In this document: positions 3,301-43,790 of the stretch, piece by piece | How positions within the stretch are numbered: position 1 is the first letter of the stretch | Layout of the letters: every line of letters starts with the position of its first letter | Source: Hymenolepis diminuta | Lineage: Eukaryota > Platyhelminthes > Cestoda > Cyclophyllidea > Hymenolepididae | Assembly (NCBI GenBank): GCA_900708905.1 | Contig: CAADRB010000077.1 | Span: forward strand, 213,326-277,325 | Direction of reading: 5' to 3' | Length of the DNA stretch: 64,000 nucleotides | Translations under genes and position numbers: made by a program | Notes under the pieces: generated by a model | Told to the model about the DNA's origin: nothing | The model's database searches: none | What the model saw: only the letters and a program-made list of their open reading frames with translations

Positions 3301-3788
3301 TCAATTAGTTTTTGGTCATTGGCACAGAAATACTGCATTTTCTTGCGAAGCAAAAGAGAGCAGAAACTTTCACTGAATCTTTTTCTTTGACAGTAGCAAC
3401 TTTTCTACCTCTGAGAAGGAGGCATCGGGTCAAGAAGCCTCGACAGCTGAGAGGTGAAGAGAGAAGTAAAGTGTGTTGTTCCACATTATGGTAATGGAAA
3501 CCAAAGAATTTACTGAAGTAAAGTAATAAGTGAGTGCGAACTTGAATGATTTTGAGGTGATTTCAAGGTTGAACTCATGATAAACAAAGCCACAGTTTCT
3601 ACTGTTGATTGACAGGGAATTCTCAGTTACTGGGAGGTGCAGTGCCTCGTCGCCAAAACCCAATCACTTTGCAAATTTTCTGTGCATTTCAAGCAGAACC
3701 GAAGTATAAAAATGGAGGGTTTGCATAAAGGATGTGTCTCGCATAGGAACGGAAGACTGCGAAGAAACTACCAATCGCTTCCTCCTCG

Positions 3789-5250
3789 ATGTTTCCTTCC
3801 ACTGAAGAGCAAGGAAAATCCACTGAGTATGGTGGTTTTCGTTTCAGTTTGTTTAAATTTTGCATAAAATATTAAATTTTTTGTCTATCTCCTTTTATGT
3901 TAAGAAGTCAAGAAAGACTTGCATTATATTGTTGTTTTGGAAACGCCTTAAAGATATGGATTCTCAATCCAAAATGTACTGAAGTGGAGATCGAACACCA
4001 ATTTCTGGACAGAGGATACGGGAAAGTTGTTGCATTTCAAAGTGCGTTACTCTCAGTTCTTGCGTTTTATGAAATAAGAGAAATGCTGAACGCATTTATT
4101 CTCCGATGTTAGACAAACTGGTTTTTATCGGTGAATGGAAAGGTGAAAACAATCCTGGCTCAAGAAGAGTTGACGTGATGGATATCTCGACAGGTCAAGT
4201 GTCATCTCTACCGGATACTATAAACGTCAGCGGCATCCCAGCTGCCGTGGCAACTGAAAACGAAATTTTCGTCTTTAACACTAAGATTTTTTCGGATTCT
4301 CCCGAGCGTTATTCGAATGAAGTATACGAGGCCGCTTCAGGAAGGCGAGTTACATTTTAATTTTTATTTTTCGTCAGCCATTGTGCAACTTGGTGGTCTT
4401 AAGAGAGTAAAAGAGTTGCTATCTCCTTCTAGATGGTCGCTTCTGCCACCAATGATTGAAGAAAGATCGCTGTATGGTGCCGTCAACATTCCAGATTCTG
4501 GCGTCTTGATCATTGGTGGAAAAGGAAGAAACGGATTGCTTCTCCGCTCCACAGAGTTGCTGACGCGGCGATCTGGTGAAGTAGGAGGTGGAGGAGGCGA
4601 GAAGTGGCAATGGCTTCCCTTCACTCCAATGAATGAAGGACATGATGTTAACCCTCTTGCAGTTTATTTGCAAGGGAGAGTCTACGTTGTTGGCTGGGGA
4701 GAAAATACGAGCTTTATGGAGATGCTGGACGTGGGAGGAAGTGGTCAGTGGACCTTTTTGAACTCAATCGGTATAAGCCGACGCTTTGGAATCTATTCTA
4801 TGGCGACAGTTGGGAATGAATTATTTGTATTAAGTTAGCAGATGATTTGAAATTTTATATTTTCCATCTCAACCCATGAATCATTATTCAAATTTTAATT
4901 AATATTTTCATTTTTAAGATCAACAGAATTTGCTTTTTTTATTAAGTATTTAAAAAAATTAAGAAATTATCAACTCTCTTCACTTCTGCTTCTTTATAGC
5001 TGAAGTATATACTGGTAGTGAGGCTCTTTATTCGGTTCGAGTGAGTAGCGACCCAAATGTAAGTTTGTTGGTGGCAGGTCCTTGTTTTCTCCTTTCAATC
5101 TGGTGGTTTTACATCTTTTCTCTCTTTCTTCCGACTTAGCAACTGCTTTGTAGCTGGAGAAGAAAGAGATTTAGACCTATGGGGACGTTGATGACGGTTC
5201 ATTTGAATAATGGAATCACCGATATGGACACAGTCACCACTTCTTCCTGA
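3789..5250 (+). CDS. K2: intact kelch-only gene derived from a BTB-BACK-kelch gene
   Basis: Six exons join in phase: 3789-3826, 3905-4041, 4113-4344, 4406-4833, 5000-5058, 5140-5250 (TGA). The sum is 1005 nt, a 334-residue protein. Kelch hallmarks are FIGEW, STGQVSSLPD, RWSLLPPM, LIIGGKGRNG, RSTELLTRR, then a glycine loop and RVYVVGW. The C-terminus TDMDTVTTSS is nearly that of K5. Intron 3 needs a GC donor (AAG|GCGAGT). BTB and BACK are absent: the 5' leader is fused to E6, and a TAG in E6 (GCATAG) plus a TAA in the leader block the old frame, so the first usable start is ATG 3789. A kelch propeller without BTB could not recruit Cul3 in the normal way. Product function and expression are inferred only. 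Confidence 0.6.
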
Positions 5251-6350
5251 ACAAAGGCCGTTTTAGGAATGCTGTATTCCTGCTAATATCTTCCACGAAC
5301 GTGAAGTATTTATGAAATAACAGATTTAAAACTTTGCAAAGTCCTGGTTTCCTGTTTTGACATAATAAATAGAGTCGTGAACTCCACACAATGTGTTTTA
5401 ATTTGCCCTTCTCTCTAGAAGACTGAATCCGACTCTTAGATTCCCTAAGACATTGCACCAATTTCAAACGCGACCCAACAGCACCTCAATACAAAACCAC
5501 CCAAACCACTATATCAATTCAAGACGGACGTCGTCGTATCAATAGGTCGAAGTATATAATGCGCCGTTTACAACCCAAAATATAAATAAACTCGTTTGAA
5601 TCAAGCGGAATTAAAAGAAGCAGGAATTCGAAAATGAAAAATATTAATGTCGTATACAAAAAACACGAAGACTCTCAGATAATTTGACCATCAGGCCGGT
5701 TAGGTCCATCGAGGATTATTTGATGAGATGAGTACGGAGGGAATTCTTTCAATGCGATATTCATCAATTAGGTTATTAGAAAGGACATGACGCACAATCC
5801 ACAGTCAGTGAGTGATTTGGGACTCAAATGAAACCGTCCAACTGACACACACTCGAACACTCACGATTGTCATTTTATCTGCTCATACCCGTCACCCACA
5901 TAAGGTAATAATTGCAGATGGGGAAAATGGTTTTAAGCAGGACAATTTCATAAGAAATCGAAAGGGAATTAAGAAAACGAAGAGGTGTAGTGTCACCCAA
6001 CAGGACAATTAATCTCTGAACAAGTTGGTTTGGAGAGCAGAATTAACGCAATTAAGGTAACAACCACAGACTTTTAGAATTGTTAAAAATTTTCCTTGCG
6101 AACGTGGTAAAATTCGACAGAAGGTGTTGTCGATTAGAACCCGAGTCGAGAGATAAAATGTGAGAAACTGTTCATTTCTACTATTTCCTATCTCGAGGTG
6201 GGAGACAGCCGACCACGGACGGTAGAGAACATGGCTCGAAGACTGATGCTAAGACTGAGCTGTAGGTAACAAATAAGTGTTAAAATTCAAGCACATAAAG
6301 TCTCCCTGATAAACCTTGCACCACAAATTCATATACAAAGTTAAATTTGT
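5251..6350. repeat. 3' flank of K2 and spacer
   Basis: No gene recognised. 5250-5575 continues the K2 3' flank and matches 34.3-34.6 kb inverted. 5707-5830 matches the K5 3' flank near 13.87-13.99 kb. A CA/AC-rich stretch near 5840-5900 recurs at 32.96-33.03 and 39.66-39.72 kb. 6105-6340 matches 33.84-34.06 kb inverted. Confidence 0.5.
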
Positions 6351-6429
6351 ATGCAAGTCTTCACGGAAAAGATGGGATGTCGACAAAAGTATTGTTGAAG
6401 TACCACTTACCAACGGTAGGTTTCTCTAC

Positions 6430-6750
6430 ATCTGCACATCCAAAGAGTTGGAATGGAGAGAAAGAAAGCGAAATTTGGACGTGGTTCATTGAAAGAACCA
6501 TAACTGAAAGATGTACGTGAAAGAGAAAGTATGTTTGCAAGCTCTCGATTCTATCGACTCTACTAATGGAAGTAAGATGAAAGGTCACTGGCATGTCGAT
6601 CACCACACATCCGAAGACGATTTCCCACCTTGTAAAATGCCATGTCCAGTAGGTGGATGCCACAAGACTTGTTGGAAAAGGGAATGGCACCGAAATCATG
6701 TAATACCAACCACACAGATTTTCCTTGGGCTGAGCAGGAATAGGTGAATT
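6430..6750 (+). other. U3: unidentified Cys-rich ORF, copy 1
   Basis: A plus-strand frame (best part 6511-6747) encodes a His/Cys-rich stretch, CKMPCPVGGCHKTC, followed by WKREWHRNHV. The inverted-duplication partner at 33.4-33.8 kb keeps this frame and most residues (CKMSYLVGGCHKTC, WKREWGRNHV). The longer 141-codon frame on the minus strand has a low-complexity, Phe/Ser-rich look and is probably its shadow. The Cys/His spacing suggests a metal-binding or disulphide segment, but I do not recognise a family. It may be one exon of a larger gene. Confidence 0.35.
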
Positions 6751-7022
6751 GCTTTCCATTAATACAGCAGTTGACCCCATTTGCACACCGTTTCTCTTGA
6801 GTCACTTAGGAAGGCGAGACAAGGGAAGAGTGGGCACTACTTAGGTGAACTGGGATAATTTATTGTTACCAGATACACTGAGTCAAGTTACGCCGAAGAA
6901 GGCAAAACTAGCAGAAGATAATGCCGTAATGAAAAAGCGTGCAATTTTACTGAAATATTTTCAGTAGTGGCAGTAGAATTCAAAGTTGAAAGCACTTCAG
7001 CATATAAGAAAGGGTCAACAGC

Positions 7023-7943
7023 AGTGAATCGTAAAATTGAGAATTAATTCAATTTCTTGAAAGGATGAAGCTTCAACTTTAACCTTTTATGAATTGAAAA
7101 AAGTTTACTCAACGACAGAAGGACAAGGAGATTCATTACTGATGCGCATTTCGTTTTCTTCCATTAACGTCGACATGCATTCGATCTTCAAACTGGAGCG
7201 GAAATTTTATCACAATTTAATTGAACCCAAATCTTCCACCTCACCACTTCGTCATCTTCCAAAATCACTCTCTGACTGTGGATGTATGTCTCGCCTTTGT
7301 AAAATACACGGCGTCGTGTTCACTCTAATAACCAAATTGATGAATATCGCATCGAAAGAACTTCATCTGCACTAATCTACACAAATAATCCTCGCTAGGC
7401 CTAACCGACCTGACGGTCAAGTATCTGGGAGTCATTGTTAAATGGTAGGAAATGCTTTTCGAATTCTTCAACCGAAAACAATCCACCTAAACATCCCATT
7501 GTAAACTTAAGACGGTGATGCTTCAATTGAAAAAGTACTCTCACAGAAATGAACAAAGGTATTGAATTAGAGTCCGTGGATACCAAAACTACTCTCACTT
7601 CCATCAATTAATTCGAAAACCCACTTATTCTCTAGTTAAAATGCGCGGTCTTTTATAATTGAAATAATAACTTTTGAATACTCTCCCAAATAATAAAGCA
7701 GATGAGTTAAGGTTGCTTTAGACCCATTCCCTCACGATAGTTTGTCCTCACAACAGCTAATTACACCAATCACTGTGCAAATGACTTGGGGAATGAAGGG
7801 CAAGAAGAAGAAGTGGAAATGAACAAAGCAAACTGACTGCATTGCGAGAACTTGGCCATTTGCGTATCCAGTAATGGAGGAGATATTTCTCAAGTACTTC
7901 CTCCACCACATTCTCTGCTTCATTTCGACAAATTCTGAGTGTA
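7023..7943. repeat. Spacer built of kelch 3'-flank and 5'-leader pieces
   Basis: No gene seen. 7270-7640 is the reverse complement of the K5 3' flank (about 13.57-13.95 kb). 7740-7940 resembles the core of the palindrome-ended element described at 49295 plus the conserved sequence upstream of kelch leaders. The 93-codon frame at 7094-7375 has no recognisable product. Confidence 0.45.
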
Positions 7944-9105
7944 AATGAGTGCAAACCTGAATGATTTTAAGGTTATTTCATGTTTATTTCATGATAAACA
8001 AGGCCACAATTCCTACTATTTATTGACAGTGAAATCACAGTTACTGGCTGGTGCAGTGCCCCGTCGCCAAAACCCAATCACTTTGCAAACTTTATGTGCA
8101 CATGAAGCAAAAGCGGTGTATAAAAATGGATAGTCTGCATACCGAATGTGCCTCGCAGAGGAATGAATGACTGCGAAGAAACAACTGATTGCTTCCTCCT
8201 CGATGTTAAAAAGTCAGGAACGACTTGCAACCTCAGGCGAAAGAAAGTTGTGCATTCTCAACCCCGAATGTTCCGAAGTGGAGATTGAACTCAAATTACA
8301 TGAAAGAGAATTCACGAATGTTTTTACATTTCAGGGTGGGTTTCTCTCCTTCTTGCCTTTTGTTAAATAAGAGAAATTTTAAATAGTTTTCTCCTCCGAT
8401 ATTAGATAAACTGTTTTCATCCGTGATGGTGGAAATGAAAACAATCCTGGCACAAAAAGAATTGACCTGATGGATATCACAACAAGTCAAGTGTCATCTC
8501 TTCCGGATATGATAAAACCCAAGTGTTTCTAGTGGGTGTAGGAGCTAAAAACGAAATTGTTGTCTATGTCTATGAGAAAAATGCGGACCCTCCCTACCGT
8601 TTTTCGAATAAAGTTTACGAGGCTGCATTGGGAAGGTAATTTATATTTTAATTTTCATTTTCCGTTGGTCTTAAGAGAGTGAAAGTATTTCTGCCTCCTT
8701 CTAGATGGTTGATTCTGCCACCCATGATTGAAAAAAATGATTTTGTGCTGACGTCAACATTACAGATTTTGGCGACCTGTTCATCGGTGGAATTAGAAGG
8801 AACCAAATACCTCTCTGCTCCACAGAATTGCTGATGCGACGGTCTGCTGAAGTAGGAGGTGGAGGAGGCGAAAAGTGGTAATGGCTTGCCTACATTCCAA
8901 TGAATGAATAACGCGGTTTTGATTCTCTTGGTGTTTATTTCCAAAGGAGAGTTTACGTGTCGGCTCTTTTGCGAATATAAAGAAGATGGAGATGCTGGAC
9001 ATGGCAACAGGCGGTCAGAGGACCTCCTTCTCCAATCACTCACCAATCCAATGCCTTTGGATCCAACCAATGGCGATTGTTGGCTATGAATTATTTGTTT
9101 TAGGT
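7944..9105 (+). pseudogene. K3: kelch-only pseudogene (class II, leader-E6 fusion)
   Basis: The leader (7944-8140) is fused to E6, and E6 is fused directly to E7 with no intron (SSSMLKSQERLA). E6 carries a TGA. E7 (8210-8335) is otherwise open and ends TNVFTFQ like K5. E8 (from 8404) has lost one base just after its acceptor, which shifts the frame. E9 (about 8680-9105) has a TAA at the conserved Trp-Gln (AGTGGTAATGG). E10 and E11 are missing. Its E9 is very close to the E9 piece in K25 (25.5-25.7 kb, opposite strand). Confidence 0.8.
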
Positions 9106-9374
9106 TAATGAATGATTTGATATTTTATAATTCCCTTCTCAATTCATTAAGTCATTATTCAAATTGTAATGTTTTATTAAGGTCAGCTGAATTTGTATTT
9201 TATTCAGGAATTTAATAAATTTAGTAATCATCTTTAAATTCTCTGCCAATTCTCTTAGACTCAAGTTTTATTGTTTCCCTCCAACAAAAGAAATCAACTC
9301 TTCTCCCTTCCGCTTCATTATATTTTGTACAGTTTCTCTTCCTCCATCCTTCCCTCTCTCACTTTCTCACTGTA

Positions 9375-9690
9375 CCTTAAAGACCACCCAGTGGTATGAT
9401 GCATAGCGCTTAATTCATTTAAAAGGAAAATTACCTTCCTGAAGCAGCCTTGAAAACTTCACTTAACTATTAACCGGGAAAGTCCAAAATCAGCCCATCG
9501 ATAAAGACAAATGTTGTTTTCAGTTGCCACGAAAACGGGTGACCGCCTACCATTTACCACGTCCAGAATAATTAACATTCGACCCATTGAGGGATCCATC
9601 GAATCAACTCTACTTGTCCACCGATTGTCTCCACCCTCCTTCCTACCACCGATGAAAACTATTTTGTTTGATGTCAGAGGATAACGTCAG
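9375..9690 (-). pseudogene. K4a: kelch E8 fragment
   Basis: A minus-strand copy of E8 (about 9437-9688) plus the first bases of E9, with many changes relative to K5. It belongs to the same sequence subgroup as K1 and K30 (GSIDSTS-type core rather than DITTGQ). No neighbouring kelch exons are in the correct order. Confidence 0.65.
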
Positions 9691-9784
9691 TCACCAGTTC
9701 TCTTATTTAATGGAAAACAAAGACCCAAGAGGGGCTCACTCTGAAATGAAAAAAACATGTAAATACCTAGGTAGAAAGTTAACA

Positions 9785-9990
9785 AAGGGAGCAACAAGAC
9801 GGGGTCAAGAGGTCCGCTGACCGATTTCTGCAAAGTCCAGCATCTCCATCACGTCCACGTGCACTCCATAGCCAACTACGTAGAAGGTGGGGCCTAACAG
9901 CATCAGTCAACAGGGCAGAAACCGTCAATCAATAGTGGAAATTGTGACTTTGTGTGGCACGAATTTAACTTTAAAATCACCTGAAAATAA
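9785..9990 (-). pseudogene. K4b: rearranged E9 tail joined to kelch leader
   Basis: On the minus strand the end of E9 (about 9800-9895, coding the VVGYGV..DVMEMLD region) lies upstream of E8 (K4a), the wrong order for a gene, and is joined at about 9897 to 5'-leader sequence. The same unnatural leader-E9 junction (CCCCACCTTCTACG) is found inverted at 49.79-49.97 kb, so the chimera was itself duplicated. Confidence 0.65.
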
Positions 9991-10482
9991 TCCCCTCAGT
10001 CTGCCTCCACTTACTGTCTGAATCTGTGAATGATGTGATGAAAATGGAAGGCAGATGACTTGACCAATGAAGCGCAAGAAGGAGAAGTGGGAATGGTCAA
10101 AGCAGAACTGACTGCATTGTGAGAACTCGTCTATTTATGTACCCCACAATGGAGGCTATATTTCTCCAACCTTCTTCCGCCATGACCCCTGCTTTATTTC
10201 GGTTATTATTTTGTTTCTTCTATAAATAGATTAACTTAGCAAATGAGTGCGAACTTGAATGACTTTGAAGTGATTTCAAGGTTGAATTCATGATAAAAAA
10301 GCCACAATTTCAGCTATTGATTGACACTGAATTCTCACCTACTGGGTGGTGCAGTGTTTCGTCGCCAAAACCCAATCACTTTGCAAACTTTGTGTGCATA
10401 TGAAGCAGAACCGAATTTTAAAAATGGTGAGTTTGAATTTCGCAATTCACATAATCGTCGTCTGCAAACCAAACGCAGCGTG
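9991..10482 (+). other. Upstream region and 5' leader of K5
   Basis: 10020-10160 contains a decayed half of the palindrome-ended repeat. 10230-10440 is the conserved kelch leader found before most copies. The frame that runs into the BTB exon is closed by a TGA at 10318-10320 and has no ATG until 10483, so most of this is probably 5' untranslated sequence or an upstream exon. No TATA box or other promoter element stands out. Confidence 0.45.
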
Positions 10483-13243
10483 ATGAATAACTTCAAAATT
10501 GTCAACCCAGACGCAAACTGGAATTGCTTTGCGCACTTTCGCGAAATGCTTGCTCGACGAGAACGCCTCGACATTTTCATTAATGTGAGTCTGCAAATTA
10601 GAGACACCCAATTCCTTCTTAATAGACTAAGGAAGGTGAAGAGGTAGGTGGACACCTCATTGTGCTTTCAGCCTTCTTCCCTGTATTCGGGAAACATTTG
10701 AGTGGCTATGACGTTGTCCACGTCCGAATGTCGAGGTTTCCTCATGAGTAAGTTTATTACAATTTGCTGCACTTTATACTTTTGATAGAGTTGTTAATGC
10801 CGCTGTGGAATATGCATACGGTGGTATAGAAAATATATCACCGGAAGTCGCCCTCAGATTATATCTTCTGGCACACAACCTCCAAAACAAATCTCTTGTG
10901 GATGGGTGCACGAAGTTTTTGTGTGCCAGGTGAGTGGTGAATTGAAGGAACCGAAAGTGTCGGTGTTGAGTGAATGATTAAATATGAACCTTGAAATAAT
11001 AAAAATTTGACTGATGGACTATTTTAGGATTGAGGAGATAAATGTGAGTGAGGTCTGGTCAGCAGCTAACGTAACAAAGAATGAAGTTCTGATTGGGGTG
11101 TGTGCACCTCTTGTGGCAATGAACTGGGAGTTGTTTAGGGCATCTCGACTTTTCTATGCGGCTACGGAGATAAAAGGCATGATGAGCCTCCTTGGATGTC
11201 CTCGGATGGCACAGAAGTCGGCGACATCAAAAGTGAAGGCACTAATCCAGTGGAGGAAAGCGTCGAGAGATGAGGAAATACGAGCAGCTCGAACTTCTGC
11301 ATTCAGAGACATGGTCTCACTTCTGGGAATTCAATATACGTCTGATTTTATCACCATTCTCTTTGTGGAGGAAATAGACATTCCCAGAGAATGGAGGTTT
11401 GTTCAAATGACTGTATAAACCCCTGCTTTAATATCCTCAAATTTATCCTTTAGTCACTTTACTTCTATAATTTACAGAAAATTGGACCAGGAATGACACC
11501 GCTCACGGCCCCAAGACGATGAATACACTGAATTGTGGTAGAGTACCACCTGAAATCACACATAAATTTTAGAGGAGTACATGTGTCATCAACATGTGTT
11601 CCATAAATTCACCTGAGTGTTCCGTATTTCCACTTAAGGTTAAGGGAATATTGGAGAGGACATTTCATTTAAGCATATGGACGATATGAGCCTCCCTTCC
11701 ATTTTCACCTCATTCACGTATTCGAGCAGTTACTAGGCCATCTTTAGGTTTATTAGGAGAAGTTTGTGAAAGACATTTTGTCGATTTGCAGGAGTTGGCT
11801 TGCAGAGGCACGAAAGACTGCGAGGAAACAACCGATCCCTTCCTCCTCGATGTCTACTTCTTTCACTGAAGTGAAAGGACAATCTCTTAAGTATGTTGGT
11901 TTTCATTTCAGTTTGTTTTCACTTTACATTAAACATGAAATTCTGTGTCTTTACCTTTTTGTGTCGAGAAGTCAGGAAAGACTTGCAACATTTGGTCGTG
12001 CACTAGGCGGCACACTGGTGTCTATTCTCAACCCCGAATGTTCGGATGTGGAGATTGAACTCCAATTACCTGAAAGAGAATTCACGAATGTTTTTACATT
12101 TCAAGGTGAGTTCCTCTCCTCCTTGCTTTTTATTAAATAAGTGAAACGGTGAATGTCTTTCCCCTCCCATATCAGACAAACTAGTTTTTATCGGCGGTTG
12201 TGGAATCAATGCTGACTCAAAAAGAGTTGACTTGATGGATATCACAACAGGTCAAGTGTCATCTCTTCCGGATATGATAAAAACCAAGTGCTTCCCAGTA
12301 GGCGTGGGAACTGAAAAAGAAATTTTCGTCTTTGGCACTAGGATGTTTTCGTACTCCTCCGACTGTTTTTCGAAGGAAGTTTACGACGCTGCATTGGGAA
12401 GGTAATTTATATTTTCATTTTTATTTTCCTTTGGTCTTAAGAGAGTGAGAGTGTTGCTGCCTCCATCTAGATGGTCGCTTTTGCCACGCATGATTGAAGA
12501 AAGATTTGGGTGTGCTGCCGTCAACATTCCAGATACTGGCGTCTTGTTCATCGGTGGACTTGGAAGGAACGGATTTATTCTCCGCTCCACAGAGTTGCTG
12601 ACTCGGCGATCTGGTAAAGGAGGAGAGAAATGGCAATGGCGTCACTTCCCTCCTATGAATTATGGTCACCGTGGTTTTCCGCTTTCTGTTTATTTCCAAG
12701 GGAGAGTCTACGTTGTCGGCTATGTAGAATTCGTAAAGAAGATGGAGATGCTGGACGTGGAAACAGGTGGTCAGTGGACCTTCTTGAACTTCTTCCGTCA
12801 ACCCCTTAAAGTATTTTCAATGGCAAGAGTAGGCAATGAGTTATTTATTGCAGGTTAGCGAGTGATTCCTTCTCAATCCATTAGATCATTATTCAAATTC
12901 TAATGTTTTTATTAAAGTCAAATGAATTTGGTTTTTTATTCAGTATTTTAACAAATTAAGTTATTATCTCCTCACTTCTGCTTCATTATTTTTTGTGCAG
13001 TTTGTAATTCGCCTGCCCTTTATTCGATTAAACTGGATAGCAACCCAAAAGTAAGTTTGTTGGAGGCAGGTCTTTGTTCTCTCCTTTCAATCTGGTGGTT
13101 TTTACATCTTTTCCCTCTTTCCTCTCTCTTAGAGACGGCTTGCTAAATGGAGAAAAAGGAAATTTACTACTTTTGTGAATTTGATGATGGTTCATTTAAA
13201 TGATGGAATCACCGATATGGACACAGTCATCACTTCTTCATGA
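10483..13243 (+). CDS. K5: complete BTB-BACK-kelch (KLHL-like) gene
   Basis: Ten exons keep one reading phase: 10483-10584, 10626-10747, 10789-10929, 11028-11396, 11792-11890, 11969-12105, 12176-12401, 12444-12853, 13001-13050, 13133-13243. The total is 1767 nt, giving 588 residues, normal for KLHL proteins. All introns are GT-AG, the shortest 41 nt. BTB (about residues 1-121) has HLIVLSAFFPVF and VEYAYGGIENISPE. BACK (122-245) has EVWSAANVTKNE and KALIQWRKASRDEE. The kelch part (280-552) has FIGGCG, TTGQVSSLPDM, RWSLLPRM, LFIGGLGRNG, RVYVVGY. The end is TDMDTVITSS. Known members bind Cul3 through BTB/BACK and substrates through the propeller; that role is inferred. The start is the first in-frame ATG. 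This is the only complete copy here. Confidence 0.8.
11397..11791 (+). other. K5 intron between BACK and linker exons, holding an 'E5-like' conserved segment
   Basis: The splice E4-E6 (TGG AG|G AGT TGG) is in phase, so this 395-nt stretch can be an intron. Inside, after an acceptor-like TTTACAG at about 11480, lies a segment conserved in at least five copies (22.1, 28.9, 44.3, 48.2 and 57.5 kb) with core TLNCGR and, in several, an ending NAPE plus TAG. In K5 a one-base loss disrupts the MTPLTA frame. It could be an alternative terminal exon, or simply a region spared by recent duplication. Confidence 0.4.
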
Positions 13244-14029
13244 ACAAAGGCCATTTCTTGAGTGTTGATTTGCTGTTAATATTTTCCACGAAAATGAAGT
13301 ATTTATGAAATAGTAGATTTAAACTTGAATAAATGTGTGCGAGTAACATTATCCACTTTATTTTCACTTGCCTTATCTCACACTGATAAGAAGTCTTGGA
13401 ACAGAGGAGCAGTTGGTTATTCTTTGCCTTTTGATTGGACAAGGAACACATTTTAGCTCTAATTTGGAAGGAATTATGGAAGGTAAATCCCTGGAAACAC
13501 TTCAAATAGACTCGAGCATTTTAATTAGAGAAAAAGTGAGATTTCGAATAAATTGATGGATGTGAGACGGACTCTAATTCAATACCTTTGTTCATTTGCG
13601 TGGGAATATTTTGCAATTGAAGTATCACCTGGTTAAGTTTATAATGGAATTGAGAATGGTCATGGAATCCACGCACTCTAATTCAATACCTTTGTTCATT
13701 TCTGTGAGAGGGCTTTGCAGTTGAAGCACCACCTCATTTAGATTGCAATGAGATGTTTAGGTGGATTGTCTTCGGGTAGGTTCGACCTGTGTTGAAGAAT
13801 TCCACAAGCATTTCTTACCATTTAACAATGACTCCCAGATAATTGACCATCAGTTCGGTTAGGTCTAGCGAGGATTATTTGGTGAGATTAGTACGGAGGG
13901 AGTTCTTTCGATGCGATATTCATAAATTTGGTTATTGGAGGGAACAAGATGCATAATTTACAGTCAGTGAGTGATTTGGGATGACGACAAAGTTGCGAGG
14001 TGTAAGAGTTGGGTTGAATTAAATCGATT
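13244..14029 (+). repeat. K5 3' UTR and duplicated 3' flank
   Basis: No gene. Segments recur at 5.7-5.83, 7.27-7.64 (inverted), 32.26-32.75, 41.93-42.25 (inverted) and 46.14-46.44 kb (inverted). An internal tandem-like pair starts with CACTCTAATTCAATACC (near 13674) and a variant near 13570. Confidence 0.5.
13328..13333 (+). promoter_or_regulatory. polyadenylation signal of K5
   Basis: AATAAA 85 nt after the K5 stop codon, within a flank shared by many copies (ACTTGAATAAATGTGTGCG). The hexamer is conserved at the same place downstream of K60 (about 60.80 kb). Confidence 0.55.
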
Positions 14030-16735: not shown

Positions 16736-17965
16736 GTTTAAAGGTCCACTGTCTGCCTGTTGCCATGTCCAGTATCTCTACCCTGTCCACGTACTCTCCA
16801 TAGCCAACAACGTAGACTCGTCCTTGGAAATATACAGAAAGCGGAAAACCACGGTGTTAATAATTCATAGGAGGGAAGTGATGCCTTTGCCACTTTTCGC
16901 CTCCTCCACCTCCTACTTCAGCAGACCGCCGCATCAGCAACTCTGTGGAGCAGAGAGGTAATCCATTTCCCTCCCTTCGACCGATGAACAAAACGCTAGA
17001 ATCTTGAATATTGACGACAGCACCCAGTGATCTTTCTGCAATCATGGGTTGGAGAAGCGACCATTTAGAAGGAGGCAGGAATTTTTCTTTCTTTTAAGGC
17101 CACCCGGTGACACAATATCCAACGGTATGTAAATATTAAAATTTAAATCGCATTTCTGAATCTGCCTCGTAAACTTCACTCGAAAAACGGTCGAGAGTGT
17201 CCGGATGTATCCCAGTGCCAAAGACAAAAATGTCTTTTTCAGTTCCCATGCCAACAGGGCAGAACCTGTCTTTTATCATGTACGGAAGAGACGACACTTG
17301 ACATGTCGAGACATCCATCATGTCAACTCTTTTTGAGTCAGGATTATTTTTACTTCGCCAACCACCGATGAATTCCGGTTTGTCTGATATTGGAGAAGGA
17401 AAGTATTCACCATTTCTCTTATTTTATAAAAAGCAAGGAGGAGAGGAACTCACCTTGAAATGTAAAAACATTCGTGCATTCTCATTCAGGTAAGTGGAAT
17501 TCAATTTCCACATCCAAACATTCGGGGTTGAGAATAGACACCAGTGTGCCGCCTAGTGTACAGCCAAATGTTGCAAGTCTGTCCTGTTTTCTCAACACAA
17601 AATAGAAAGACACAGATTTTAATGCTTTATGTAAAGTTTACATATACTGAAACGAAGTTCACCATACCCAGTGAATTGTCCTTTCGCTTCAGTGGAAGAA
17701 GTAGACATCGAGGAGGAAGGGATCGGTTGTTTCTTCGCAGTCTTCCGTCCCTCTGCGTGGCGCATCCGATATGCAAACTCTCCATTTTTAAACTTCGGTT
17801 CTGCTTGAAAAGCACATGAAGTTTGCAAAGTGATAGGGTTTATGGGACGAGGCACTGTACCACCCAGAGAATTTACTATCAATAAATAATGGAAATTGTG
17901 GCTTTGAGTATCATGAGTTCAACCTTGAAATGACCTCAAAATCATTCAATTTTGCACTCTTCTCC
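16736..17965 (-). pseudogene. K17: kelch-only pseudogene (class II, in-frame leader-E6 fusion)
   Basis: The clearest class II junction: one open frame (17619-17882) runs from the leader (NPITLQTSCAFQ, NGEFAYR) straight into E6 (MRHAEGRKTAKKQP, SSSM). E7 (about 17455-17605) has a TGA where K5 has Arg (LPE*E). E8 (about 17160-17390) is open (GTEKDIFVFGTG) but its donor is changed to ATGCGA. E9 (16736-17100) has LLMRRS and a glycine loop, then a TAA after PPMNY, and is cut off at 16735 by U1 sequence. E10 and E11 are missing. Confidence 0.8.
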
Positions 17966-18773: not shown

Positions 18774-18774
18774 A

Positions 18775-24879: not shown

Positions 24880-26470
24880 TTGAGATAAGGCAAAGCAAAG
24901 GAGGAAGGTTATTTTGATGAAATTGCCACTCGCACACATTTATTCAAGTTCAAATCTGTTATTTCATAAATATTTCATGTTCGTGGAAGATATTAACAGG
25001 AAATCAACACCCAAGAAAAGGCCTTTGTTCATGAAGAGGAGAAGATTGAGTTCATTCCATTATTGTAAATGAACCGTCATCAACTTCGCGACAGAAACAA
25101 ACTTCCCTTTTCTCCATTTAGCAAGCTGTCGCTGAGAGAGGAGAAAGAGAGAAAAGATGTAAAACCACCAGACTGAAAGGAAAGAATAAGGACCTGCCCC
25201 CCACGAACTTACTTTCGGGACGCCATCCAGTTCAACCAAATAAAGAGCAGGCGAATTAGAAACTGCACAAAATAAAATGAAGCAGAAGTGAGAAGAGTTG
25301 ATTTCTTTCGTTAGAGGGTTGCAATAAAACTTTTGTCAAAGTGAATTGGCAGAGAATTTTAAGATAGTCACTAAATGTATTAAAATACTGTATAAATATG
25401 AATAAAATTTAGTTGACCTTGAAAAAAAGTATTGGAATATGACTAATGATCTAATGGATTGAGAAGGAAAATATAAAATATCAAATCATTCACTAACCTA
25501 AAACAAATAAGTCATTGCCAACAATCGCCTTTGATTGGATCCAAAGGCATTGGATTGGTGAGTGATTGGAGAAGGAGGTCCTCTGACCACCTGTTGCCAT
25601 GTCCAGCATCTCCATCTTCTTTATATTCTCAAAACAGCCGACACGTAAACTCTCCCTTGGAAATAAACGCCAAGAGAATCAAAACCGTGTTGTTCATTCA
25701 TTGGAATGTAGGTGCCCTTAATAACCTAAAATATTTCATTAACCAATTTTGATCATTCAAGCAATTCGATTCCTTCGATTCACCACTCACTTGGCACACA
25801 AAACTGGGTGCACCTATCAACGAGAGCATTTGATTTGGAGGTTGTGTGGCAGGAGATATAATCTGAGGGCGATTTCCGGTAACATAATTCAATGCCCTCA
25901 TATGCATATTCCACAGCTGCATTAACTACTCTATTAAATGCATAAAATTCGGCAAACTGTAATCAGCTCACTCATGGGGAAACCCCGAAAAATGGACGCG
26001 GACAACGTCATTGTCACTCAATTGTTTCCCGAATACAGGAAAGGAGGCTGAAAGCATGATGAGATGTGCACCCACCTCTTCATCTTCCTTTGTCTAATTG
26101 GGAGTGATTGAATTTCTCAAATTTGCAGACTCACATTAATGAAAATATCGAGGCGTTCTCGCCGAACACGCATTCCACGAAAGCGTGAAAACCATTCTTA
26201 ATTTGACACAGGATTGATAATTTCAAGGTTGTTCATCAGACGACAATCATGCGATTTGCGATATGCAAACTTTCCATTTTTAAACTTTGGTTCTTCTTGA
26301 AATGCACATGAAATTTTGCAAAGTGATTGGGTTTTGATGATGAGGCATTGCACCACCCAGTAACTGAGCATTCACTCTCAATTAATGGTAGAAATTTTGG
26401 GTTTGATTATCTTGAGTTTAACCTTGAAATCACCTCAAATTCACTCAAGACCGCACTCATTTACTAAGTC
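24880..26470 (-). pseudogene. K25: chimeric BTB-to-kelch pseudogene
   Basis: Minus strand: leader (26250-26460), E1 (26130-26250) with a TAA, E2 (about 25980-26100, SASFPVFGKQ), E3 (about 25790-25930, frameshifted), then after an acceptor-like ATTTTAG the second half of E9 (about 25530-25720), E10 (about 25205-25260), E11 (about 25040-25140) and 3' UTR. BACK, linker, E7 and E8 are missing. Its E9 piece is nearly the same as that of K3. Confidence 0.75.
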
Positions 26471-28990: not shown

Positions 28991-29089
28991 ATATTTTTTT
29001 CCAGAACAAAATGTAAGAGCTCTGGTTCTCATCTTATGGAAGGCTTCTCTTTTTGAAAACAATTGACATGTGTGCTCAACATGTTTCTT

Positions 29090-34583: not shown

Positions 34584-36064
34584 TCATTTTAATTGAACCG
34601 TAATCAACGTCCCCATAGGTTTAAATTTCCTTCTTCTCCATCTAAGAAGCAGTTGCTAAGTCGGAAGAAAGAGAGAAAAGACGTAAAGCACCAGACTGAA
34701 AAGAGAGAACAAGGACCTGCCACCAACAAACTTACTTTTGGGTCGCTATCCACTTCAGCCGAATAAAGAGCACGATCATCATTAAATTCATGAACTGTAA
34801 AGAAGCAGAAGTGAAGAGAGTTGATAATTTTTTATTTATTAAAATACTGAATAAAAAAAGCAAATTCAGTTAATCTTGAAAATGAAAATATTATTTAAAA
34901 TATGAATAATGATTCAATGGGTTGAGATGGAAAATATAAAATTTCAAATCATCTATTAACTTAATACAAATAATTCATTCCCAACTGTCGCCATAGAATC
35001 GATTCCAAGGCGTTGGCTTAGACCGAATGAGTTCAAAATGGTCAACTGACCACTTCCTCCCACGTTCAGCATCTCCATACCGCTCGTATTTTCTCCCCAG
35101 CCAACAAAGTAGACTCTCCCTTGCAAATAAACTGCAAGAGGGTTAGCATCGTGTTCTTCATTCATTGGAGTGAAGGGAAGCCATTGCCACTTCTCGCCTC
35201 CTCCACCCCCTACTTCACCAGACCGCCGCGTCAGCAACTCTGTGGAGCGGAGATCTGATCCATTCCTTCCTTTTCCACCAATGACCAAGACGCCAGAATC
35301 TGGAATGTTGACGGCACCATACAGCGATCTTTCTTCAATCATTGGTGGCAGAAGCGACCATCTAGAAGGAGATAGCAACTCTTTTACTCTCTTAAGACCA
35401 CCAAGTTGCACAATGGCTGACGAAAAATAAAAATTAAAATGTAACTGGCCTTCCTGAAGCGGCCTCGTAAACTTCATTCAAATAACGCTCGGGAGAGTCC
35501 GAAAACATCTTAGTGCTAAAGGCGAAAATTTCGTTTTCAGTTGCCACGGCAGCTGGGATGCCGCTGACGTTTATAGTATCCGGTAGAGATGACACTTGAC
35601 CTGTAGAGAGATCCATCAGGTCAACTCTTCTTGAACCAGGATTATTTTCACCTTTCCATTCACCGATAAAAACCAGTTTGTCTAACATAGGAGAATAAAT
35701 GCGTTCAGCATTTCTCTTATTTTATAAAAGCAACAAATGAGAGTAACGCACTTTGAAATGCAACAACTTTCCCGTATCCTCTGTCCGGAAATTGGTGTTC
35801 GATCTCCGCTTCAGTACATTTTGGATTGAGAATCCATATCTTATAGGCGTTTCCAAAACAACAAAATGATGCAAGTCTTTCCTGACTTCTTAACATAAAA
35901 GGAGATAGACAAAAAATTTAATGTTTTATGCAAAATTTAAACAAACTGAATCGAAAACCACCATACTCAGAGGATTGTCCTTTCTCTTCAATGGAAGAAG
36001 AAAACATCGAGGAGGTAGTGATCGGTAGTTTCTTCGCAGTCTTCCGTTCCTCTGCGAGGCACAT
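34584..36064 (-). CDS. K35: intact kelch-only gene, inverted twin of K2
   Basis: Six minus-strand exons in phase: 36064-35967, 35888-35752, 35681-35450, 35388-34961, 34794-34736, 34655-34584 (TGA). Sum 1026 nt, 341 residues. It starts at an ATG created at the leader-E6 junction (MCLAEERKTAKK), keeps FIGEW, STGQVSSLPD, RWSLLPPM, LVIGGKGRNG, RSTELLTRR and RVYFVGW, and ends early (LITVQLK) because one added A shifts the last exon compared with K2. The E8 donor is AAG|GCCAGT, a weak GC site, so splicing of this intron is the main doubt. No BTB or BACK. The leader carries the same TAA as K2, just before the ATG. Confidence 0.55.
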
Positions 36065-36845: not shown

Positions 36846-36947
36846 CCCTGCTTTATTTCTGTTATTATTCTGACAAATTCTGCGTATGGGGTGAGCATTG
36901 TTCCTTCTACAATTAGATTAACTTTGTAAACGAATGCAAACTTGAGT

Positions 36948-37179: not shown

Positions 37180-37734
37180 CCATCTTGAAATTTTAATTAA
37201 TTATTAGACAGAAGGAACACCCAATTAATGAGGAAGTAATCTAAGCACCTTTACTTTTTAATTTATTATATGTCATGCTGCAATTCCATTTGAACCGCTG
37301 TAAATGAAATGGGTAAAATTCATGCAAATATTGCAATACTTCCACAACAAAACTGAGCTGAGATCGAAAATCTTCATCTGAAAATTGATATTTTCATAGA
37401 AAGAAAGTATTTCTAAATTCTTAAAATAAGACAGAGAAGATTATCACAAATCTTGTTGTTTCTTCTATCAAAATTGACATCAATATTCGTAAAGTGGCAA
37501 AATTTTCACAATGACACAGCATATGTTGTGGAAAGGAAGAGTTACTACTGATGACATAGCACAAGCTTCGAGGTAGAAGAGTTGCTGCTGTCAAGGAGGA
37601 AGAATCAGTGAATGTTTTTGCTCACATTTGCTTGACAAGTAAATGCAGCATTTCTGTGCCAATGGCCAACAACAAGGTGAATTCGAGTTTAAAATCGTAC
37701 CGCTCAAAGCCACAATTTCTATTATTAACTGACA
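37180..37734. other. spacer
   Basis: 37180-37250 matches the LTR flank at 52.26 kb. 37250-37690 shows no ORF or repeat that I recognise. From 37690 the leader of K38 begins. Confidence 0.4.
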
Positions 37735-39060
37735 GTGACTCCTCTGTTGCAGGGTGATACAGTGCCTCGCCTTCACAGAAACCTGGCGTCAGTCATGCCG
37801 AAACGCCTTGTAGCACGTTAAGTTGTATTTGGCAACACAGTTGTGAGCATTTTCAACGCGGAATATTCCGACTTGGGACTGAACTCAAACTGCCAGACAC
37901 AATATGTTGACACATTGACTTTTTTCAAAGTGGACCCTCGAGACTCTCTGTTGTTCCATTAAATAAGGGAAATTATGAAAGATTTTATTCCCTGATCTTA
38001 GACAAAATCATATTTATTGGGGGTTGGGAGGAGGGTAGAGATAACCCCTGGTCAAGTAGAGTTGATTTGATGGATCTCTCGACGGTTGGACTGTCACCTC
38101 TTCCCAACATGGTAAATGCTAGGAAGTGGTCAGCTTTCGTGACAACTGAAAACGAAATTGTCTCTCTGGGCGTTTATTCAAATGAAGTTAACGAGGCTGC
38201 TTCAGGAACGTAATGTCCTTTCTCAGTGTCCTTAGCGTTATTCATCTTACCACTGGGTGGTCTTTAAGAGAGAGTGAGATAGAGAGTTGTTGCCAACTTC
38301 CAGATGGTCATCTCTTCGCCCATGATAGAAGAAAGAAACTGTGTGCTGCTGTTAGCATAGCAAACTCCAGCGTATTGGCCATTGGTGGAATTGGAAGGAA
38401 CCAAGTGGGTCTCCACTCCACAGAGTTGCTGACACAGTTGGTGAATGAAGGCGGAGGTGGAGGAGGCAAGAAGTGGCAATGGCGTTCCTTCTCTCCAATG
38501 AATGAAGAACACGGTGGTGATCTTCTTCCTGCTTTTCTCCAAGGCAGAGTCTGCGTAGTTGGCTGTAGAAAGTACGTGGACGTGATGGAGATGCTAGAGG
38601 TGGCAGGGGACGATCAACGATTGGTCTCATTGACAACTCCTTCGCGTCGGTTCAATGACGAGTGTTGACCATCAATTATTTATGACATATTATTTATATT
38701 ATTTATTTATTCATTATTTAATTTCGCATTTTATTCTAATTTTTCCAATTTAAAGAAAAAAATTCATTTGCATCGCCTTTTCTTTAACCTTGAACTGAGC
38801 AGATTATGATTCGTCTTCCGTTTATTCGATTGAACTGGAAAGCGACACGGAAGTAAGTTCGTGGGAATTAAGTTCATATTCTCTTTCCATTATCCTGTAA
38901 CCTCTATATATTTTTATCTTTCTCATTCCATAGTGTTAGAACACCAAATTAGGGGAAATGAAGGAAATCTGGAAAGATAGTACTTACGTGTTTTTGAGGA
39001 CGATTCAATTGAAATGATGAAATCACTGAAATAAACACAATCATCTCAACTTCATGACCA
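37735..39060 (+). pseudogene. K38: kelch-only pseudogene (class III)
   Basis: Plus strand. The leader is fused to E7 exactly as in K1 (TCACAGAAACCTGGCGTCAG). E7 (about 37800-37950) has a TAA after RLVAR. E8 (37999-38214) has lost part of its third strand (NEIVSLGVYS) and its donor reads ACGTAATG. E9 (about 38275-38690) is mostly open (ANSSVLAIGGIGRNQ, STELLTQ, glycine loop, RVCVVGC). E10 (about 38805-38852, SVYSIELESDTE) and E11 (from 38937, with a TAG/TAA near its start) follow. Confidence 0.8.
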
Positions 39061-39899
39061 GAGGCCTTTTGCAGAATGCTGATTTTCCGTTAATATTTTC
39101 AATAATGTAAAAAATTTATAGTAAATGCAAACTTAAATAAATGTTCGTGGGTTTTCTTTTCAACAAAGTGTCAATTTCATGTTGCCTTTGTTTATCTTAA
39201 CCTGATATCGCTCTCTCATTTGAAACACCGCGTGGTTAAGTTCGCCATGGGAGATTTCGGTGGATTGACTTCGAGTTGGTTCAACGTGTGCTGTCGAATC
39301 CTCAGAGGGATTCATTCCACACCCCACGGTCAACACAATTCTTCTGTTTGATAATTTCGAGTTCGACTGAAAAGGGTAATCAACTGATCATTTCTTGTCA
39401 TTTTAGTTGAAAATACTACATTTAGAGGCTAATTTGGAGGGATTGAATTACTGTAAGCACTTTAAATAGACATTTGAAAAGTCGTGTTATAAAAATGTAA
39501 GGCTAAGTGCGTCTTTTGAACGAATTGGTGGAAGTGAGGATGATAGTGGAAATTCACAGACACCAATTCGATATTTTGTGCATTTTCGTGGGAATTTTTT
39601 TCTAGTGCAACACGTCAGGTGCGTCTTTGTCCAAGTGTCTCTAATGAAACATTTTGTATTCCAACTGACACACACTCGAAAACCCACGCCCGTCATTTCA
39701 TCTGCCCAAACCCTTCACTCATATCTCCCCGCTCACTCTTCACTCTCCCACTTTCCCGATTCATCATCGTTCTCTATTCAGTGCACCTTGGTAAGCACAA
39801 TTCTCCGTGCTCTAGTCTTTGAACAGTCGTTTGCTGTAGTTAGCTGCTAGCCATAGTCTCAGCTTCTGGTTTTGGCTCATTAGTTCCACGATTTGGTCA
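39061..39899 (+). repeat. 3' flank of K38 and spacer
   Basis: 39150-39560 matches the flank of K1 in reverse. 39650-39790 has a C-rich ACACACTCG/CACTCAT stretch similar to 5.84-5.90 and 32.96-33.05 kb. The 90-codon frame at 39578-39850 is not recognisable. Confidence 0.4.
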
Positions 39900-40520
39900 C
39901 CCTACAATTTACTGCTAGTGAAGGAGATAAAGGGAAAGAGTTAGAGGGTCACCGGAATGAAGGAAGGGAATGGGGGCTTAACTCCAATGAACTTACTTTC
40001 GGGTCGCTTCCAGTTCAATCGAATATGGGAAGTATTCCAGAATAAAATTCAAATGTTCCCTGTTTATATCAATAATAGACCAAAACGAGTAACACAAAAA
40101 TGAATGGAAAAGATGAATTTTGTTGACCTTGGAAATGAAACTTTCATTGATTTATTCAATCGAACGAGAAGGAAAATTGACAAAATCAATTCATTAGTTT
40201 ACTTTCAAAAAACAATTGATTACCAATTCTCGCCATTGAACAGACGCAAATGAGCTTATCTGGGGAGAGTTTGAAGGAAGCCAAGGAGATCCACTGACTG
40301 CTGGCTTCATCGTCCAGCATCTCCATCGCATTCACGCACTCTCCAATGCCAACAACGTAGACTATCCCTTGGAAATAAACAGCAAGCCTATCCACACAGT
40401 GTTCTTCATTTATTGGTGCAAAGGAACACCATTGCCACGTCTCGTCTACTCCTCCTTCTCCTCGTCCATCACCCGACCACCGCGTCAGCAATTTCGTAGA
40501 ACGGAGAGTCCCTTGATTCC
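39900..40520 (-). pseudogene. K40: kelch E9-E10 fragment
   Basis: Minus strand. Second half of E9 (about 40190-40510; WSGDGRGEGG, RWCSF-type, GIVYVVGIGECVNAMEMLDD, open) is followed by E10 (about 39985-40030) and remnants of E11. The 39.91-40.18 kb part closely matches K15 at 15.15-15.42 kb. No other exons. Confidence 0.65.
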
Positions 40521-41439
40521 TTTTCAGATGCCTATTTGAAGATTTTACAGCAATTTAACTTCATTTACTCCAACTGAATCAGCACCGTTATGTGTTCATT
40601 TTCCAATCAAATGACAAGAAATGACTGACAAAGGCATATAAAATAGTTCACTCCATTAATCACGTGGACATTTATTTAAAGAGATGACGGATCCAGATCT
40701 CCACCGATGTAAATCCATCGCATATTTATTAAGAATTGTTTTAGCCATCTTCTCGGCAAGTTTATAAAATGTTCAGTTTATATTTCAAACTCTGAACTAA
40801 GTCAGAATATCGGCGTTCCAGAGCTATTCGAGAAACTAAACGTTGCATGTTCAATTCTACCACGTTCGGAATGGGAATTTTTTTTGCTACTTAGGAAATT
40901 CTAAAGGTCTGTGGTTACTACCTTTAGGCCGTTAATTATGCGCACCGAACCAACTTTTCACAGATTAATTACCCTGTTGTGTGACCCCACCTTCCTTCCC
41001 TTTTTTCCCTTTCGATCCCTCTACCAATATCTTCTTCTTCATTCCAAATTCCCCATTTGCATCTGTTACTTGGTGGGAGTGGTGACATTAATTAGACATG
41101 TCAATTTATCCCCTGCTTTGTCGCTTCCGAACAGATAATAATTTTGACTTATTTTACACTTCAGTGTTGCAATTTTTCCGCAAGTGAACGAACACCTTCT
41201 CTCTGACACTCTGATTAACCATTTCAGTAGAACTTAAAATTACCAAACCGAAGAGTTGTGTTGACCGTGGTGTGTGGAACAAATCCCGCTGAGGATTCGA
41301 CTACTCACGTTGAACCAACTCGAAGGCATTCCACCGAAACCTTCCATAGTAAACCCAACCACGCGGTGTTTAATGTGCAGGATATTCAAATGACAAAGTC
41401 GCATCAGATTATGATAAACAAAGGAAGTTGAGATGATTT
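40521..41439. repeat. spacer with arm-A centre and 3'-flank similarity
   Basis: 40620-40760 matches the centre of arm A-right (34.14-34.29 kb). 41070-41430 matches 29.33-29.82 kb. No gene seen. Confidence 0.45.
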
Positions 41440-41930
41440 TGTTTATTTTAGTGATTTTATCATTCCAATTGAATCGTCGTCAACAACACGAAAGTAGTAT
41501 CGTTCCAGATTTCCTTCGTTTGCCCCAATTTGGTTTTCTGACACTATGGAATGAGAAAGATAGAAAAAATTAAAAGTTACAGGATTATGGGAAGAGAATA
41601 TTAGCTTGATTCCCACGAACTTACTTCCGTATCGCTTTCCAGTTCAATCGAATAAACGGAAGACGAATCATAATCTGCGAAATTCAGGATAAAGCAAAAG
41701 CGGTGTAAATGAATTATTTCTTTAAAAAAGAAGCATAAAACAAGATGTGATAAATGATGATAAATAATTTAAATAACCTGCTAAAAATAAATGATAGTCA
41801 ACACTCGCCATTGAACCGACTTGAAGGGGTTGGAAAGGAAATCAACCATTGGAGGTCAAAGAGGTACATTGACCGTCTGCTGCCACGTCTAGTATCTCCA
41901 TCGCGTCCACATACTGTCAATGATGCTTCA
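41440..41930 (-). pseudogene. K41: kelch C-terminal fragment
   Basis: Minus strand: the last third of E9 (about 41780-41930, AMEILDVAADGQ-type), E10 (about 41628-41670, SSVYSIELESDTE) and E11 (about 41440-41560). It breaks off at 41930 into kelch 3'-flank sequence in the same strand sense as 7.4-7.6 kb. Same subgroup as K1, K30 and K38. Confidence 0.6.
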
Positions 41931-42259
41931 CTTGCAAAGTACTCCTACAGAAATGAACAAAGGTATTGAATTAGAGTCCGCGGATTCCACGAATAATCTC
42001 ATTTCCATCAATTCATTCAAATATCCACTTTTTCTACAATTAAATTGTTAGAGTCTCTTTGAAGTGTTTCCAGGAATTTGCCCTCCATAATTCCTCCAAG
42101 TTAGAGGTGAAATGTGTTTCTTTTCCAATCAAAAGACAAAGAAAGACCAACTGGTGAAACTGCATTTCGGACACATTTATTCAAGTTTAAATCTATTATT
42201 TCATAAATACTCTTTGTTCGTGGAAGCTATTAATCAGCACCTAAGAAAAAGTCTTTGTT

Positions 42260-43790
42260 CACGAAGAGGAGAAAATTAGTTTATTTCGGTGAATCAATCA
42301 TTTCAAATAAACCTTAATCAACTTCGATTGACGTAGAGATTCAATTCTTTCCAATTTTCAAGCTGTTGCGGAGAGAGGAGAAAGAGAAAAGATGTAAAAT
42401 CACCAGATTGAAAGGAGAGAATTAGCACCTGTCTCCAACAAACTTACCCTCAGATGGCCATCCAGTTCAATCGAATAAAGAGCAGATATACGACATTCAG
42501 TTGACCTTAATAAAAACATTACAATTTGATTAATGATCTAATGGATTGAGAAGGAAAATATAAAATATCAAATCATTTACTAATCTGAAACAAATAATTC
42601 CTTCGTCCATTGACACCCTCTTGCCATGTCCAGCATCTCCATCTTTTCTATTTTCTCAAAACAGCCAACAACGTACACTCTCCTCCGAATATAAACAGCA
42701 AGAGGCAAATCATCGTGTCCTACATTGCCACTTCTCGCCTCTTCCACCTCCTCCTTCACCAGACCGCCACATCAGCAACTCTGTGGAGCAGAGACTTGAT
42801 CCCTCCCTTTCCATTCCACCGATGAACAAGACGCCAGAATCTGGAATGTTGACGGCAGCACACGAATATCTTTCTTCAATCATGGGTGGCAGAAGCGACC
42901 ATCTCGAAGAAGGCAGCAACTCTTTCACTCTCTTAACACTAACGGAAAGTGAAAATTGAAATAGAAATTACCTTCCCAATGCAGCCTCGTAAACTTCATT
43001 CGAAATACGATCGGGAGTGTCCGAATTTATCCTATAATCAATGACAAAAATTTCCTCTTCGGTACCCACTCCAACTAGAGAAAACTTAGCGTTGCTCATA
43101 TCCGGAAGAGATAACAATTCACCGGTTGAGATATCCATCATGTTAACTCTTCTTGAGTCAGGATTATTTTCACTTCGCAAACCACCGATAATAACCAGTT
43201 TGTCTGATATCGATAAGGAAAGTATTTACCATTTCTCTTATTTAATAAAAAACAAGAAGTTGGAGGAACTCACTTTGAAATATAAAAACATTCGTGTAGT
43301 CTATTTCAGGTAATTGTAATCCAATCTCCACTTTGGAACATTCGCAGTTGAGAATACACACCCGTGTAGCGTTTGCTCCAGGACCAAATGTTGCAAGTCT
43401 TTCCTGACTTCTAAGCATATAATGAGAAAGACACAGGTTTTAATGATTTATATAAAATTTAAACAAACTGAAACGACGACCACCATACTCAGTGGATTAT
43501 CCTTGCACTTCAGTGGAATAAGAATACATCGAGGAGGAAGCGATCAATTATCTCTTCGCAGTCACCCGCTCCTCTGTGAGACACATCCGATATCCAAACT
43601 CACCATTTTTATACTTCGGTTCTGCTTGAAAAGCACACAAACTTTGCAAAGTGATTGGGTTTTGACGACGAGGTACTGCACCACCCAGTAGCTGACAAAT
43701 CACTGTCAATAAATAGCTGAAATTGTGGCTTTTTTTATCATGATTTCAACCTTCAAATCACCTTAAAATCATTCAGGTTTGCACTCATTT
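42260..43790 (-). pseudogene. K42: kelch-only pseudogene (class II)
   Basis: Minus strand: leader-E6 fusion (43480-43790; E6 reads MCLTEERVTAKR then TAA), E7 (about 43275-43412, open), E8 (about 42972-43210, GGLRSENNPDSRRVNMMD, open), E9 (about 42605-42930) open through SRWSLLPPMIEERYSCAAVN and STELLM but with a deletion after EKWQC, E10 (about 42450-42490) and E11 (about 42260-42390). The 2.4-2.6 kb DNA 3' of it is kelch 3' flank. Confidence 0.75.

Follow-up and report, generated by a model that had tools for sequence, protein, structure and literature searches.

Within the genome assembly of the tapeworm Hymenolepis diminuta (170.6 Mb), we analysed a window of 64,000 bases (bases 213326-277325 of contig C174; two runs of N, at 1-905 and 52405-52454, total 955 bases). 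The window sits inside a cluster of a tapeworm BTB-BACK-kelch gene family. Five of its copies, K2, K3, K17, K35 and K42, lack the BTB and BACK regions and carry the 5' leader joined directly to the linker exon ahead of the kelch propeller; we call copies with this junction class II. At least 152 stretches in the genome match one kelch fragment, certain genes being counted twice, and the matches listed include 14 contigs. A search of the assembly for COX1 gave no match. The family census is a lower bound, and L-numbers denote loci of the genome both inside and outside the window.

The reference for all copies is a consensus built from aligned full-length copies (n = 11), which reads as a single open BTB-BACK-kelch frame of 572 amino acids in ten coding exons (X1-X10). 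The BTB and BACK-like regions are encoded by X1-X4 and the propeller by X6-X10, with X5 as the linker between them (E6 in the initial annotation). All consensus acceptors are AG and the donors are GT, except for GC after X7; across the family this intron has a GC donor in most copies read and GT in a few (W10, L024, L025, L032). The class II copies of the window and two full-length copies are as follows.

3531-5330, forward strand: K2; leader 3531-3726, junction at about 3727-3731, X5 3731-3826, X6 3905-4041, X7 4113-4344, X8 4433-4833, X9-X10 to 5330.
7944-9102, forward strand: K3; leader 7944-8140, X5 8148-8205 fused to X6 8211-8333, X7 8408-8635, X8 8705-9102; stops and frameshifts.
10242-13386, forward strand: full-length comparison copy with leader, BTB, BACK, linker and kelch; a single 1-base deletion in the final exon.
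17959-16742, reverse strand: K17; leader 17959-17771, X5 about 17766-17669, X6, X7, and X8 ending early at 16742.
36267-34512, reverse strand: K35; leader 36267-36070, new ATG at 36064, X5 36065-35967, X6 35888-35752, X7 35681-35450, X8 35361-34961, X9 34794-34736, X10 from 34655.
43789-42152, reverse strand: K42; leader 43789-43592, X5 43587-43489 with an in-frame stop, X6, X7, X8 with deletions, X9-X10; broken.
49216-46297, reverse strand: second full-length copy with leader, BTB, BACK and kelch; stops and frameshifts.

Read against the consensus, two of the 11 full-length copies (L047 and L054) are free of frameshifts and stops. Among six additional loci L068 is clean, as is L067 apart from its missing linker; the latter (C106:68900-72800) has open X1-X4 and X6-X10 without X5. 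The L054 protein exceeds the Pfam cut-offs for BTB (PF00651; E value 2.2e-11, 44.4 bits against a cut-off of 20.5), Kelch_1 and Kelch_6. No Pfam match to BACK (PF07707) was obtained in L054. The predicted structure of a near-full-length relative (P0002), a weak model with a predicted template modelling score (pTM) of 0.47, includes a helical region and matches KBTBD2 of Cul3-Rbx1 complexes along its length (about 490-500 columns, E value 1.7e-12), but the overlay is poor (TM-score about 0.33). For the family kelch protein P0011, from the database, the predicted structure (pTM 0.81) is a closed propeller beginning at X6, the residues ahead of it being of low confidence, and its best matches in the PDB are mostly the kelch domains of KEAP1 and KLHL proteins. 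The full-length proteins are most likely putative Cul3 adaptors whose target is chosen by the kelch propeller, and this large, fast-changing family probably selects proteins for destruction. The nearest named relatives found outside Hymenolepis, at 38-42% identity, are from Anoplocephala perfoliata.

Base-level comparison placed the junction at the same point in all five named copies, as the initial annotation had proposed: leader ...GCATATCG abuts GATGTGCC..., that is, leader consensus base 262 is joined to X5 base 1, with an overlap of one base (G) wherever the leader bases are unmutated. For a genome search with a 241-base query spanning the K2 junction, 40 of the 189 candidates were scored and 41 matches obtained, which makes the resulting counts lower bounds. 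Nineteen of the matches cross the junction, 21 stop at it because the leader continues into X1, and one is the linker piece of a C79 copy already counted by its leader. The junction is identical in 17 of the 19 crossing matches, which sets class II at no fewer than 17 copies; the exceptions, L029 and L035, break elsewhere. A pattern search allowing up to three mismatches recovered 15 of the 17 junctions, and its reversed control none. Moreover, all 17 class II copies have T at X5 base 3, which creates a new ATG (since lost in L020), whereas none of 24 other linker exons carries it (two copies with other deletions and three rows without alignable X5 were excluded from this comparison). Since the same substitution is confined to class II, its junction most likely arose once. 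L064, like L029 and L035, has lost BTB/BACK at breakpoints that differ from those of class II, and the loss occurred at least four times overall. Thus the part of the initial annotation that had BTB and BACK lost once stands for this junction but not for the family.

As read from the sequence, class II originated by genomic deletion; a retrocopy origin, already argued against in the initial annotation, is rejected because the introns after X5 are kept. They are retained fully in K2, K35 and K42, and in K17, for which the same had been claimed, as far as the early-ended X8. In K3, X9-X10 were not found and the two introns following X6 are retained; the fusion of X5 to X6, a small in-frame deletion that took the intron, recurs in L028 and L065, and these three class II copies (K3 is L032, window 8148-8333) form a clade. 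Two other shortened copies in the window have different architectures. At 24880-26461 (reverse strand) X4-X7 are missing, and a leader with X1-X3 runs straight into part of X8, followed by X9-X10; at 52789-53794 (forward strand) a leader, X1 and part of X2 are followed by X7 and the start of X8, an internal deletion with another pair of ends.

The leader itself is more alike among copies (consensus 160-262) than the coding exons are, and mixes freely between classes. We considered whether it is coding and under amino-acid constraint, and rejected this: among 20 full-length or partial copies, consensus 159-258 varies by 0.098, 0.115 and 0.097 at the three codon positions, and several copies have stops there, including the otherwise clean L068. 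A point against this rejection is that the last 44 bases ahead of X1 vary most at third positions (0.142, 0.179, 0.276). L056 and L069 (a distant copy) have Met in place of the Leu of most copies.

Among the class II copies, K35 has an open frame of 332 amino acids from the junction ATG to the stop in six exons, with AG acceptors and GT donors, or GC after X7. The ATG noticed at its joint by the initial annotation is indeed present, as MCLAEERKTAKK at 36064. L019, on contig C72, is likewise intact, with 330 amino acids and GT/GC-AG splice sites. K2 and K35 are near-duplicates (92%), but in K2 codon 5, counted from the junction ATG, is a TAG, and X10 has lost one base; the X5-X8 of K2 are otherwise stop-free, and its next in-frame ATG is codon 20. 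In K3, K17 and K42 there are stops, frameshifts or truncations. The joined frame of K17, described as open, is so through the linker, but this gene is broken further down. In the kelch tree (37 rows, 16 of them class II; L033 and L035 were dropped as too short or degraded, and L070-L072 were excluded from the trees owing to unalignable 5' halves), K2, K35, L019, L020, L021, L022 and L023 form a clade with support of 100/98 that contains no full-length kelch half. In five of these seven copies the leader frame is closed at the leader-X5 join by a TAA (TAA AGG, TAA GGG or TAA AGA) immediately ahead of the new start; the ATG, with A at -3, is retained in four of them and reads ATA in L020.

Using pairwise counting, in which the pairs are not independent, we obtained ratios of nonsynonymous to synonymous rates (dN/dS) of 0.43 (0.35-0.52) for BTB-BACK and 0.75 (0.62-0.93) for kelch in nine copies. 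The variable kelch codons reach 1.58 (1.29-2.01) in 13 copies; in three splits that used half of the copies to define the codon classes and the rest to measure them, values were 1.54, 1.18 and 1.52, the second interval extending down to 0.92. Variable codons are enriched in loops (53/123, compared with 37/131 in strands; p 0.018).

Within the K35 clade, six copies were used for indel and codon counts, L022 being excluded because its X8 ends early. Their exons hold four indels (two not divisible by three) per 1006 columns and their introns 11 (ten) per 494, so that frameshifting indels are rarer in exons than in introns (Fisher p 0.0005), although mean divergence is similar (0.121 and 0.109, respectively). 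The overall dN/dS of the clade is 0.83 (0.63-1.16). When its codons are sorted by their conservation among full-length copies, invariant codons give a dN/dS of 0.22 (0.08-0.48), intermediate codons 0.65 and variable codons 1.35 (0.93-2.22); the corresponding values for K35 and L019 alone are 0.09 (0-0.53), 0.66 and 2.26 (1.21-5.45). Counted as distinct changes, the clade has 10 nonsynonymous and 10 synonymous at invariant codons, as opposed to 81 and 14 at variable ones (Fisher p 0.0013). K35 and L019 differ by 130 substitutions in the 991 exon sites of X5-X10 (112 of them in X5-X8) and by no exon indels, compared with six intron indels. In simulations, 110 random changes in X5-X8 left no stop in 1.8% of 4000 trials, and the chance of zero exon indels is 0.012 if the intron indel rate is set to its lower 95% bound. 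Constraint on the reading frame and the core codons of the K35 clade is thus evident from sequence comparison, and K35 and L019 seem to be two shortened genes kept by selection.

Outside the K35 clade, class II kelch halves are interleaved with full-length ones, and the tree requires five changes of class II state. A single clade of all 16 class II copies is rejected by the approximately unbiased test (p-AU 0.00028). By region, it is rejected for X5-X6 (p-AU 0.021), X8 (0.032) and X9-X10 (0.00012), and not at the 0.05 level for the leader (0.061) or X7 (0.069). In the comb-like leader tree class II shows no clustering (13 changes against a shuffled mean of 13.2). At the start of X5 (first 25 bases) the distance between class II groups (0.162) is smaller than that to full-length copies (0.247), which differ mutually by 0.200, while over the kelch half this order is reversed (0.236 among class II groups, 0.213 to full-length copies). 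Among 22 windows of 50 bases, class II copies are nearest to themselves in four: the two at the start and those beginning at 2014 and 2214. Several types of sequence precede the leader, irrespective of class: the K35 type (with TATAAA) is common to eight of the ten full-length copies printed, the TATAAA itself being in four of the ten, and the K2 type, which differs, is also found at L059. The full-length copy W10, together with L068, groups with class II copies in X5-X6 and carries the class II base at X5 position 62. Because the kelch halves are not one clade, the junction has probably been exchanged between copies; exchange near the junction is the simplest, although not a proven, reading of the mixed tree. 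The initial proposal that the kelch-only form multiplied as a single lineage after the loss is thus not supported as it stood.

Taken together, we consider it reasonably probable that one deletion was followed by spread of its junction through duplication and recombination, and that the K35 clade has been maintained as a competitor or decoy. In this reading a single deletion brought the 5' leader directly up against the first base of the linker exon, which lies between BACK and the propeller. This linker is probably flexible, judging from the low confidence of residues 254-279 in the predicted model, and the propeller would stay whole because the deletion falls there. One base change at the joint created the new ATG, and duplication and recombination with full-length copies would have brought the junction to where it now stands, ahead of propellers of different descent. 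Most class II copies decayed, but K35 and L019 stayed open with leader, all splice sites and core propeller residues, while their variable residues kept changing. We infer that these copies are transcribed and that the new ATG serves as their start codon. Were K35 translated, its product would bind the targets of its propeller without a cullin partner and would not hand them to Cul3, which makes a competitor or decoy the preferred, and a plausible, role for K35-type proteins. A more far-reaching version, to which we give a low probability, is that the junction acts as a movable switch: in a target-recognition family under diversifying selection, recombination would set it before varied propellers, turning Cul3 adaptors into ligase-free decoys, and the K35 clade would be a lineage of decoys kept in being and diversifying in step with the full-length adaptors.

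Several observations weigh against maintenance. Fifteen of the 17 class II copies are lesioned, interrupted by N (in L021 the assembly has N within X7) or not fully readable (for L065 and L033 the reading against the consensus stopped short of the end). At a threshold of 97% over at least 25 residues, no class II copy is matched by any of the 61 database proteins returned; the sole such match inside a class II locus (P0020, at L025) falls on the opposite strand, upstream of the leader. (P0020 is a public gene model that apparently fuses a kelch/BTB fragment to another stretch, which may resemble a retroelement gag.) K35, through its first 328 residues, stays under the Pfam kelch cut-offs, its best named motif having an E value of 0.019 and 15.4 bits against 25.3. 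The overall dN/dS of class II is near 1, and that of K2 and K35, the pair for which the initial annotation had named such a value, together with a lack of transcripts, as contrary evidence, is 0.69-0.76 with an interval that includes 1; this average, however, mixes a constrained core with fast-changing codons. The arguments from indels and stops are inflated because K35 and L019 were chosen for being intact. Finally, the core-codon pattern extends beyond the K35 clade: pooling seven further class II copies (L031, L033 and L065 excluded) yields 0.49 (0.28-0.90) for invariant and 1.35 (1.03-1.82) for variable codons, and therefore history before the deletion or before decay can contribute.

An overall dN/dS near 1 and the absence of matching gene models among the 61 proteins speak for every class II copy being a pseudogene, K35 and L019 being simply young or lucky, and the stops and frameshifts of K3, K17, K42 and others add to this. 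So do the unconserved core codons of K17 and L026, with dN/dS of 1.40 (0.54-5.48) at invariant codons; the other broken pairs, K42/L025 and K3/L028, give 0.51 and 0.73, and all three intervals are wide and include 1. Nevertheless, K35 and L019 are both free of lesions at a divergence of 130 of 991 exon sites, and the K35 clade combines depleted exon frameshifts with core codons at 0.22, so that we hold this explanation to be somewhat unlikely, if well short of negligible. Class II could instead be a silent store, passing propeller sequence into full-length genes by recombination, like the donor cassettes of other diversifying systems. The interleaving of class II and full-length kelch halves and the class II affinities of W10 and L068 in X5-X6, including base 62, would fit such a store, but the seven-copy K35 clade holds no full-length kelch half, and a donor would not need splice sites or a stop codon; we regard it as improbable. 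Less probable still is repeated independent deletion at one fragile spot: at least three other deletions removed BTB/BACK and the kelch tree has five class II state changes, but the breakpoints of those deletions differ, and the T at X5 base 3 runs through all of class II and none of the other linker exons. We retain a single deletion, spread of its junction and maintenance of the K35 clade as the best explanation overall.

Kelch propellers without BTB are known from KLHDC proteins. Class II shares this architecture but arose within the tapeworm BTB-BACK-kelch family and not from KLHDC genes, a distinction made without comparison of KLHDC sequences. Compared with KLHL and KBTBD proteins, the full-length copies are alike in exceeding the Pfam cut-offs for BTB and kelch and in the match of a relative to KBTBD2. 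They differ in having 12-19% identity to the solved structures listed and a poor structural overlay, in the number of matching stretches in one genome, and in the existence of a class without BTB and BACK. Among the papers listed in literature searches none is seen to describe this H. diminuta family, those listed for H. diminuta and kelch being off-topic by their titles and the start of their abstracts, and the word kelch does not occur in the main texts of the H. diminuta (PMC6890685) and H. microstoma genome papers. In another cestode, Spirometra, 'Kelch protein 18' is described as expanded (PMC4265353), a growth of kelch genes that is similar in description.

One deletion that can end up before propellers of different descent would mislead a gene history drawn domain by domain. 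With ligase-linked and ligase-free forms of one fast-changing propeller, and with RNA sequencing published for this model tapeworm (PMC6890685), the family would also permit a direct test of whether adaptors give rise to their own antagonists. Rapid evolution of E3 adaptor families has been interpreted as a tracking of foreign proteins, and the F-box and MATH-BTB adaptors of Caenorhabditis elegans are described as showing birth-and-death evolution and strong positive selection in their substrate-binding, not cullin-binding, domains (PMC4334554). The H. diminuta family resembles them in its many copies, many of them dead, and in a constrained cullin side (BTB-BACK 0.43) opposite a faster target side (kelch 0.75, variable codons 1.58). 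On the other hand, it belongs to another phylum, uses another domain pair and includes a form without the cullin half that is common to many copies.

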